From NCBI GenBank assembly GCA_947453415.1, contig CANGGG010000013.1, positions 1 through 47,494 of the forward strand: DNA of 47,494 nucleotides, written 5' to 3'. The stretch comes from Bacteroidota bacterium (GTDB lineage: Bacteria > Bacteroidota > Bacteroidia > UKL13-3). Under the pieces are notes generated by a model, which had not been told where the DNA came from, ran no database searches, and saw nothing but the letters and a program-made list of their open reading frames with translations. The position numbers and the translations under genes were made by a program. Of this stretch, positions 37,933 through 47,373 are shown one piece after another; the stretch's first letter is position 1; the number at the start of each line of letters is the position of its first letter.

Positions 37933-37974
37933 GAAATTCGAAAAAATAAATTCGAAATTCGAAAAATAAATTTC
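37933..37974 (+). repeat. Tandem duplication of a 21-base A/T-rich unit
   Basis: GAAATTCGAAAAA-type unit at 37933-37953 is repeated at 37954-37974 with two small changes. It begins eight bases after the SRPBCC stop codon. The words TAATCACTTCATCAACCGATCAACC follow directly, resembling the stutter near 41265. Confidence 0.6.
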
Positions 37975-45282: not shown

Positions 45283-47373
45283 ATGACTGAACCCAAACGA
45301 TATTTAGTAACAGCAGCTTTGCCATACGCAAACGGACCTGTTCATATAGGCCATTTAGCTGGCTGTTACCTTCCTGCCGATATTTATGTGCGCTACTTAA
45401 AAGCACAAGGCAAAGAAGTTATTTTTATTTGCGGTAGCGATGAACATGGCGTGCCAATTACCATTAAAGCAAAAAAAGAAGGAATTACACCCCAACAAGT
45501 GGTAGATAAATATGATGGCATTATGAAAAATGCTTTCAAGGATTTTGGCATTGATTTTTCTTTTTATGGCCGAACTTCATCAAAAACTCACCACGATACT
45601 GCGCAAGAATTTTTCAGGAATTTATACGACAAAGGAATTTTTAAAGAAGAAATTACCAATCAATATTTTGATGTTGAGGCCAATCAATTTTTAGCCGATA
45701 GATACATTACAGGAACTTGCCCACGCTGCGGAAACACTAATGCTTATGGCGATCAATGTGAAAAATGTGGAACTACTTTAAGTCCTACAGATTTAATCAA
45801 TCCTAAGTCGGCTTTAAGTGGTGCAACTCCAATTTTAAAGGAAACTAAAAACTGGTTTCTGCCAATGGACACCATTCAACAATCAGTACAATTTCAGGAA
45901 TACATTAAACGTTTTGATGCCTGGAAAAGTAATATAAAAGGTCAGTGTAACAGTTGGCTTACCGAAGGTTTACAACCTAGAGCCATGACACGTGATTTAG
46001 ATTGGGGAGTTCCAGTTCCAGTTGAAGGTGCAGATGGCAAAGTTTTATACGTTTGGTTCGATGCTCCTATTGGTTATATCAGTGCCACTAAAGAGTTTCT
46101 TTTAACTTCGCACTCCGCACTTCGCACTTCGCACTTCGAAGATTGGTGGCAAAATGAAGACACTGCATTGATTCATTTTATAGGAAAAGATAATATCGTT
46201 TTTCATGCTATTATTTTCCCAATGATGTTAATGACACATGGTAAATATATTTTACCTACCAATGTACCGGCAAATGAGTTTTTAAATTTAGAAGGTGATA
46301 AAATTTCAACTAGTAGAAATTGGGCAGTTTGGTTACATGAATATTTAATAGATTTCCCCAACAGGCAGGATGAATTGCGTTATGTATTGACCAGTATTGC
46401 ACCTGAAACCAAAGATAGTGAGTTTACTTGGAAAGATTACCAAACCCGCATTAACAGTGAATTGGTGAGCATTTTCGGTAATTTTATAAATCGGGTTTTG
46501 GTATTAAGCAATAAGTTTTATGAAGGAAAAATTCCTACCATCAATACTCCTTTAACTGATGAAAAATTATTGACTTGTCGCCAAGTTTGTTTTGATGGTG
46601 TAGCACAAAGTTTGCATGCCATGCGTGAAGATTTAGACGCTGTAAAATTACGTGATGCACAAGCAGAATTTATCAATATTGCAAGAGCTGGAAACAAATA
46701 TTTGGCCGATACTGAACCATGGAAACTAATAAAAACAGATGCTGAAAGTGTTAAACAAATTATGTTTGATGCTTTGCAAATTTGTGCCAAGTTAGCCATT
46801 GCAGCAGCACCATTTTTACCTCACACTGCCAATAAATTAAAAATAATGTTGGGAGACGAAAACATGAATTGGAATGCTTTATTTAATGAAACTATATTAT
46901 TAGAAAACCACCAATTAGGCAAACACGAAATTTTGTACAAACAAGTAGAAGACGAAGAGATACAAAAGCAATTAAATAGATTGGAAGAAATAAAAAAAGC
47001 AAATGATGAACAGCCTATAAAAACTCAAACTTTTGCAGAATTAAAGCCTGATATTAACTACGAAGATTTTGAAAAATTAGACTTGCGAGTTGGTAAAGTT
47101 TTAGAAGCAGAAAAAGTTCCAAAAGCCGATAAGTTATTAAAATTAACAGTGGATTTAGGATTTGAAAAACGAACTATTTTAAGTGGCATTGCTGAATATT
47201 ATAAACCAGAAGAATTAGTTGGTAAATTAGTAACAGTTGTGGCCAATTTAGCCCCAAGAAAAATAAGAGGAATAGAAAGTCAAGGAATGCTATTAATGGC
47301 TGGAAATGATTTTGGAAAACTGTATAATGTAAGCACTGAAAAAGACATTGAGTTAGGAAGTGTAGTAAAATAA
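45283..47373 (+). CDS. metG: Methionine--tRNA ligase with C-terminal tRNA-binding domain
   Basis: Charges tRNA-Met in the cytoplasm. The 696-residue protein has PYANGPVHIGHLAG (HIGH at 21-24), the zinc knuckle CPRCGNTNAYGDQCEKCG (Cys146, 149, 159, 162), and KISTS (340-344) in place of KMSKS, a variant usual in this phylum. The anticodon domain and an EMAP-type tRNA-binding domain (LDLRVGKVLEAEKVPKADKLL, about 590-696) follow. The oddity is a stretch around residues 275-284 (TSHSALRTSH) encoded by four copies of a 7-base repeat, absent from relatives, which have a short acidic loop there. No clear -7 element was found upstream. Confidence 0.96.
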   Translation: MTEPKRYLVTAALPYANGPVHIGHLAGCYLPADIYVRYLKAQGKEVIFICGSDEHGVPITIKAKKEGITPQQVVDKYDGIMKNAFKDFGIDFSFYGRTSSKTHHDTAQEFFRNLYDKGIFKEEITNQYFDVEANQFLADRYITGTCPRCGNTNAYGDQCEKCGTTLSPTDLINPKSALSGATPILKETKNWFLPMDTIQQSVQFQEYIKRFDAWKSNIKGQCNSWLTEGLQPRAMTRDLDWGVPVPVEGADGKVLYVWFDAPIGYISATKEFLLTSHSALRTSHFEDWWQNEDTALIHFIGKDNIVFHAIIFPMMLMTHGKYILPTNVPANEFLNLEGDKISTSRNWAVWLHEYLIDFPNRQDELRYVLTSIAPETKDSEFTWKDYQTRINSELVSIFGNFINRVLVLSNKFYEGKIPTINTPLTDEKLLTCRQVCFDGVAQSLHAMREDLDAVKLRDAQAEFINIARAGNKYLADTEPWKLIKTDAESVKQIMFDALQICAKLAIAAAPFLPHTANKLKIMLGDENMNWNALFNETILLENHQLGKHEILYKQVEDEEIQKQLNRLEEIKKANDEQPIKTQTFAELKPDINYEDFEKLDLRVGKVLEAEKVPKADKLLKLTVDLGFEKRTILSGIAEYYKPEELVGKLVTVVANLAPRKIRGIESQGMLLMAGNDFGKLYNVSTEKDIELGSVVK
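46105..46138 (+). repeat. 7-base tandem repeat inside metG
   Basis: After ACTTCG (46105-46110) come CACTCCG, CACTTCG, CACTTCG and CACTTCG (46111-46138), then the frame continues. The unit is not a multiple of three, so it encodes a 7-residue period (TSHSALR, TSH). The copies are nearly identical, which suggests recent expansion. Confidence 0.85.

Follow-up and report, generated by a model that had tools for sequence, protein, structure and literature searches.

Probable in-frame capture of a dispersed CACTTCG heptamer array by metG in a genus of Bacteroidota

How a tandem repeat with a 7-nt unit came to lie in an essential gene, and what has kept it there, is the question raised by the metG gene in a 47,494-nt stretch of a Bacteroidota genome, referred to here as the window. 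The gene (positions 45283–47373, forward strand) is an intact open reading frame for a methionine--tRNA ligase (MetRS) of 696 residues; like valS, menD, murC, and murG, which are considered below, it is an essential gene. Its product matched profile NF001100 with 836.6 bits (cut-off 587), contained the Pfam domains PF09334, PF19303, and PF01588, and was the one match in its own genome at E <= 1e-100. The array occupies positions 46105–46138 of the forward strand (34 bp) and consists of a 6-base partial copy (ACTTCG), one variant unit (CACTCCG), and three perfect CACTTCG units, read in frame as TSHSALRTSHF (residues 275–285). This bore out the original prediction that near-identical CACTTCG copies lie in frame in metG. 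Tandem Repeats Finder gave the array a period of 7, 4.9 copies, 92% matches, and a score of 61, the second highest of the 42 rows for the window. The highest score (73) went to a 20-bp repeat at 37933–37972, which has another heptamer array within it (GAAATTC, 4.6 copies, 68% matches). The word CACTTCG occurred six times in the window, three of them within the metG array, against 1.5 expected, and none of 100 shuffles reached six. A search of the whole window with Rfam at gathering thresholds returned a tRNA only.

The array lies in a MetRS loop of variable length (46087–46173, forward strand), between the conserved motifs GYISA and HFIGKDN. Six peptide patterns, one of them (HFEDWWQN) touching the end of the array, led to 361 confirmed MetRS relatives on GTDB contigs, of which we aligned the best 80. 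Nearly all 80 are titled MAG in their records; the genomes used here are drafts, and gene calls are crude. In length variation, the loop ranked among the top three segments of the protein, with 10 to 33 residues in the 80 relatives and 18 in the window. Because the segment that holds the array varies in length, MetRS most likely tolerates it. On the basis of this variation and of an alignment with PDB sequences, we regard the loop as most likely a tolerated site, and we infer no gain of function. An insert of about 10 residues, as had been predicted, was not found: the loop is only 1 residue longer than that of a 96%-identical relative (L036) and about 8 longer than the shortest among the 80. 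The relatives' loop, which had been described as short and acidic, was not uniformly so, as many relatives hold other heptamer arrays there.

Alignment to close relatives, as had been proposed, revealed no lone expansion. The nearest relative (L035, the sister; protein 97% identical) had the identical 34-bp array, with flanks differing at synonymous sites. The next one (L036, protein 96% identical) had GACCATG units in the loop; DNA identity to the window was 96% in the preceding and 97% in the following 100-nt bin, as compared to 67% in the loop bin itself. We also searched 10 genomes of the genus for metG at E <= 1e-100 and found it in 8, the other two being 88% and 65% complete. The loop unit was CACTTCG in the window and the sister (L235), GACCATG in L236, L237, and L239, GAACTTC/GAACTCC with the palindrome TCCCGATGGCTATCGGGA in L238, and CAACTGG followed by GCCAGAA-like units in L240 and L241. 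As shown by identical 2-kb metG stretches, L235–L238, L240, and L241 are the genomes of L035–L038, L040, and L039, so that only L239 was new. In L238, GCAACTA passes into GCAACTT and then into CGAACTC and CGAACTT without any break in the 7-nt register, as would fit switching from array to array. A palindrome, CCGAT(A/G)GCTATCGG, was also noted inside heptamer arrays, both in frame in metG (L238 and L059) and in the menD-menB spacer (L185 and L187).

In a MetRS tree computed without the loop, L239 was the first branch of the genus (support 100/100 for the genus and 94/93 for the other seven), and L037, then L036, split off before the pair formed by the window and L035 (93/89; 100/90 in a larger tree). 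By parsimony, GACCATG is the likely ancestral metG-loop array of the genus, with at least two changes since. With GACCATG in the ancestor's loop, the CACTTCG array would have replaced another heptamer array. A simple expansion inside metG, which the original prediction had assumed, is therefore not supported, the sister having the identical 34 bp and the gene tree indicating that the array took the place of GACCATG heptamers. The copy-number steps of three that had been foreseen were not observed between the genomes compared; what changes is the unit as a whole, and the differences in loop length are other multiples of 3. Interspecies recombination of metG could blur this replacement history, account for the shared GACCATG, or have moved the array within an allele.

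Periodicity in the loop was assessed with a run score of at least 9. Of the 38 near metG loops (the window's included), 13 were periodic at lag 7, none at lags 4–6 or 8–13, and 7 at lag 14, while 200 codon shuffles yielded a mean of 0.01 at lag 7 with a maximum of 1. Among the far relatives, 1 loop out of 44 was periodic at lag 7 (L084, unit ATCACGG). With another threshold, the 36 near relatives gave 8 lag-7 hits in the loop and 1 elsewhere in the gene (total length of metG sequence, 75 kb); other lags gave none in the loop, and the 104 kb of metG flanks from these 36 relatives contained no period-7 array. The 44 far relatives gave, at the same threshold, 1 lag-7 hit in the loop, 2 in the rest of metG, and 4 in the flanks. 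Heptamers were also seen elsewhere in metG, namely AAGTCCG and ACATCGG in the C-terminal half of the gene in L114 (3166–3250) and GACGGAT in a different segment in L060 (2116–2156).

Period 7 was also prominent genome-wide. In 447 kb of the window's own genome (the window and 20 further stretches), we counted 21 period-7 arrays, as compared to 5 for the next period (8) and 0, 0, and 0 in three Markov shuffles. The corresponding numbers of period-7 arrays for 334 kb of a genus mate were 6 and 0, 0, and 1. The units were of many kinds in the sampled own genome. Relative to crude ORFs, which make up 90% of the sample, 18 of 28 arrays lay outside, 9 inside, and 1 partly inside. In one place (L132 on contig C19 of the own genome, 1553–2723), ATAGTCC, TGGGAGA, GAAGTAT, and CTATGGT arrays were packed in about 1.2 kb. 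Indels between close relatives showed no clear excess at 7 bp (3, 6, and 4 indels of 6, 7, and 8 bp, respectively), the pairs compared sharing genomes and the events being partly double-counted.

In-frame heptamer arrays were not confined to metG. The own genome had them in menD and in two loops of valS; in a genus mate they lay in murG and in two loops of murC. These four genes were named by NCBIfam matches above cut-off, and the frames, read from the DNA, were open. A search of 20 genomes for orthologues recovered valS and murC from all 20 (some split or partial) and menD from 19. In the second valS loop the units were GAATTTC, CCAACAT, CATGGAC, or GCCAAAG-like, with no clear array in 3 of the 14 loops shown; in menD they were CACTTCG, GAATTTC, or CAACTGG. 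The murC loop had CAACTAT, GAATTTC, or CCAATTG units with unchanged loop length, and none in more distant genomes. That murC loops with and without arrays are equally long fits replacement or decay rather than insertion. In murC of G000 (the own genome) and G001, decayed forms of arrays present in near genomes could be recognized by eye. Among periods 4–15, the counts were 15 at 7, 2 at 6, 1 at 12, and 5 at 14 for valS (23 loci); 7 at 7 and 1 at 14 for menD (19 loci); and 8 at 7 and 4 at 8 for murC (30 loci). These counts are not all independent, as the loci include overlapping fragments of a single gene (e.g. L213 and L224). The second murC loop also showed in-frame period-8 words (AATCAACC) in L207, L208, and L209, and 21 extra residues with heptamers in two other genomes of the genus (L204 and L205).

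The menD gene allowed gene and spacer copies to be compared. Its in-frame array was identical in G000, G001, and G002, while the heptamer arrays in the spacer behind it showed differences of about 31 bp and of 7 bp between genomes. The warning that 7-base steps would put the frame of an essential gene at risk holds in principle, and the constancy of the menD array next to changing spacer arrays fits with it.

The CACTTCG unit belongs to a family dispersed in the genus. Two consecutive units, with at most 1 mismatch, had 15 matches in the own genome (10 sites after merging), and 11, 9, 1, 6, 3, and 10 matches in the genus members G001–G006, respectively, as compared to 0–1 in each of 13 other genomes and 0–1 per genome and strand for the reversed control. 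Of the 10 sites in the own genome, 9 were examined (all but the one on contig C58): 5 were intergenic, 2 were in frame (metG and menD), and 2 were in an ORF stretch that we read as spacer. The search for further CACTTCG arrays that had been suggested thus disclosed a family of about ten sites with gene and spacer copies, and it lends support to the proposal that a repeat of intergenic type entered a gene.

The dispersed family has a 25-bp core, CGCAYTTTTGTCAYTYCGCAYTTCG. With at most 2 mismatches, it was present in 9–20 copies in each of G000–G006 and absent from nine other genomes. In 64 genomes of the taxonomic family, it was found in 9 of 10 genomes of the genus (6–20 copies), in both genomes of a second genus (5 and 2 copies), and in none of the 52 others; the reversed control gave 0 in all 64. 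The remaining genus genome, G022 (that of L239), is 98% complete and has no copy, having either lost the repeat family or never acquired it. To determine where the core is placed, 88 distinct contexts were grouped into 31 site clusters (L242–L271 and L272–L317), of which the first member was judged against crude ORFs. Where the right-hand neighbor was a gene on the opposite strand (19 cases), its stop codon lay within 30 nt in 13; where the left-hand neighbor was a gene on the same strand (17 cases), this held for none. A start codon lay within 30 nt in 3 of 10 cases on the right and 1 of 12 on the left, and 2 clusters were inside a called ORF. Viewed in the direction of the gene, the core is thus often located behind the stop codon, on a strand that reads CGAAGTG. 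The dispersed core is a polar 3'-end element, and no palindrome was apparent in it by eye. The sense strand of metG and menD reads CACTTCG, as opposed to CGAAGTG for the post-stop cores, and the metG array has no TTTTGTCA part of the core. A search for TTCGCACTTCGCAC (at most 2 mismatches) in the own genome gave 33 forward and 5 reverse matches (reversed control, 2 and 3). Two other genomes of the genus gave 2/9 and 6/3, and we therefore take this strand bias of CACTTCG-type matches to be probably one of contig orientation.

Further evidence for a link between gene and spacer copies came from contig C91, where a spacer array has 20 exact bases in common with the metG array, the variant unit included. 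In controls against the same sequences, 55 other 34-nt segments of metG shared at most 15 bases, and the reversed metG array shared 11. This sharing speaks for the existence of such a relation and not for its rate, because the compared loci were partly chosen for a similar pattern.

We also considered that a loop might simply show the commonest repeat of its genome, and rejected this. GCCAGAAx2 had 19 matches in the own genome, as compared to 15 for CACTTCGx2, so the metG unit is not the commonest. G010 had 18 matches of CATGGACx2 with a different unit in its metG, G017 had 17 GCCAGAA matches with no array in its metG loop (L048), and in G003, likewise, unit numbers in the genome were not reflected in the loop. 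GCCAGAAx2 occurred in 15 of 20 genomes and is no genus marker; CATGGACx2 occurred in 13 of 20, where low counts mean little because the reversed control reached 4 (G011) and 5 (G014). CAACTGGx2 was found in 16 of 20 genomes (0–9 matches; controls up to 2).

Taken together, we think it probable that the metG array was captured in frame from the dispersed CACTTCG/CACTCCG family of the genus and that selection has since kept it. A GACCATG array would have stood in the loop of the genus ancestor, and the lineage leading to the window and the sister would have switched to CACTTCG, perhaps by short template switching or by conversion from another heptamer array. Slippage by 7 nt would set the copy number, and purifying selection would hold frame and array in genes while intergenic copies go on changing. 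Several results weigh against this reading: the metG unit is outnumbered by another in its own genome, 7-bp indels are in no clear excess, the metG array lacks a part of the dispersed core, murC loops with arrays are no longer than those that have none, the metG flanks of the near relatives contained no period-7 array, and metG may have recombined between species. Entry into genes may be simple: as 7 is prime to 3, a stop-free unit yields the same cyclic heptapeptide whichever frame is read (HFALRTS for CACTTCG), so that an array can land in any frame and only its total length must fit.

The strongest alternative is that polymerase slippage, which favors units of 7 nt, multiplied in place a CACTTCG word present in metG by chance, nothing being copied in from other sites. 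Many bacterial genomes have more heptamers than expected, and a 7-nt contact of the polymerase has been proposed as the cause, according to two papers that cite an earlier study (PMC4692102, PMC4679880); period 7 was favored here whatever the unit, and the arrays behind menD differ by 7 and about 31 bp among genomes. Yet about ten sites in a single genome have the same two types of unit, and among the 64 genomes of the family the core was found only in this genus and one other, which makes a convergence of chance seeds hardly plausible. The 20-bp stretch with its variant unit common to metG and a spacer, and a loop that most likely held another heptamer array already, also argue against slippage in place, which we consider unlikely.

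Somewhat less likely still is that the array arrived within a metG segment by homologous recombination from another species, with nothing heptamer-specific having taken place in this lineage. Along metG the window is indeed patchily nearer to L035 or to L036, and the murC loop of G001 with its upstream flank resembles G003, not G000. However, the drop in identity to L036 is limited to the loop bin, and the donor would itself need the array, so that the origin would merely be shifted elsewhere. We give very little weight to the idea that selection on the protein favored a useful heptapeptide, with the DNA period as a by-product: in-frame arrays are unchanged between near genomes, as it would have it, but the period is one of 7 nt in DNA, the peptides differ among relatives, and such words are also intergenic. 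An assembly or metagenome-binning artefact can practically be dismissed, as L035, deposited separately, has the identical array between different synonymous flanks and the ORF is intact, even though the genome is in draft form (107 contigs).

A more general process appears to us possible rather than probable: copying of heptamers may still be going on in the genus, arrays acting as mutual donors that overwrite each other in register and rewrite loops of MetRS, ValRS, MenD, MurC, and MurG, with an orientation-fixed form planted after stop codons. If this were true, tolerant loops of essential enzymes would repeatedly gain new heptapeptides. As close species hold different 7-nt arrays in one loop of an essential gene, gains, switches, and losses can be followed along the tree. 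The system also offers a built-in contrast, gene copies being unchanged in the cases compared (metG, n = 2 genomes; menD, n = 3) and spacer copies changing in one case.

Several known systems resemble this one in part. Heptamer arrays such as that of hmw1A of Haemophilus influenzae also consist of 7-nt tandem units. Arrays of this type switch (phase variation) and act on surface genes; metG, in contrast, is a housekeeping gene, and its array is identical in the one other genome that has it. REPs are located near gene 3' ends. The heptamers described here are likewise small dispersed repeats near gene 3' ends, and the core shares with REP/BIME the polar 3'-end placement, but they are direct heptamers and not palindromes.

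The heptamer repeats of cyanobacteria are named STRR. Heptanucleotide repeats have been reported in cyanobacteria, as GGGAATC in Xanthomonas, and as TAACTGA in Beggiatoaceae, Cyanobacteria, and some Bacteroidetes; in these reports (PMC4692102, PMC4679880), they are, as here, made of exact 7-nt units and mostly intergenic, and their spread is not explained. The arrays in this genus share with them the head-to-tail 7-nt unit beyond chance, the dispersal at many sites, and the mostly intergenic location. They differ in also lying in frame in essential genes, and in that the same loop holds different units in relatives. Related heptamers were rare according to the abstract of the TAACTGA study, whereas many units occur here in one genome. 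In-frame copies in unrelated genes (here metG, valS, menD, murG, and murC, all with open frames) recall the Rickettsia palindromic elements, a small dispersed repeat found in frame in unrelated genes (reviewed in PMC10969869). These are about 150 bp long with a conserved peptide, and palindromic by name, unlike the direct 7-nt arrays of about 17–45 bp described here (34 bp in metG), whose peptides change. No in-frame heptamer array in Bacteroidota genes, and no case of heptamers whose unit changes within one loop of essential genes, was found among the matches listed in open-licence literature (titles and beginnings of abstracts). Heptamer repeats and the in-frame capture of repeats are thus known, while the switching of units within one loop of an essential gene appears to be new. 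The origin and spread of bacterial heptamer repeats are unsettled, and this genus offers a direct comparison of near species.
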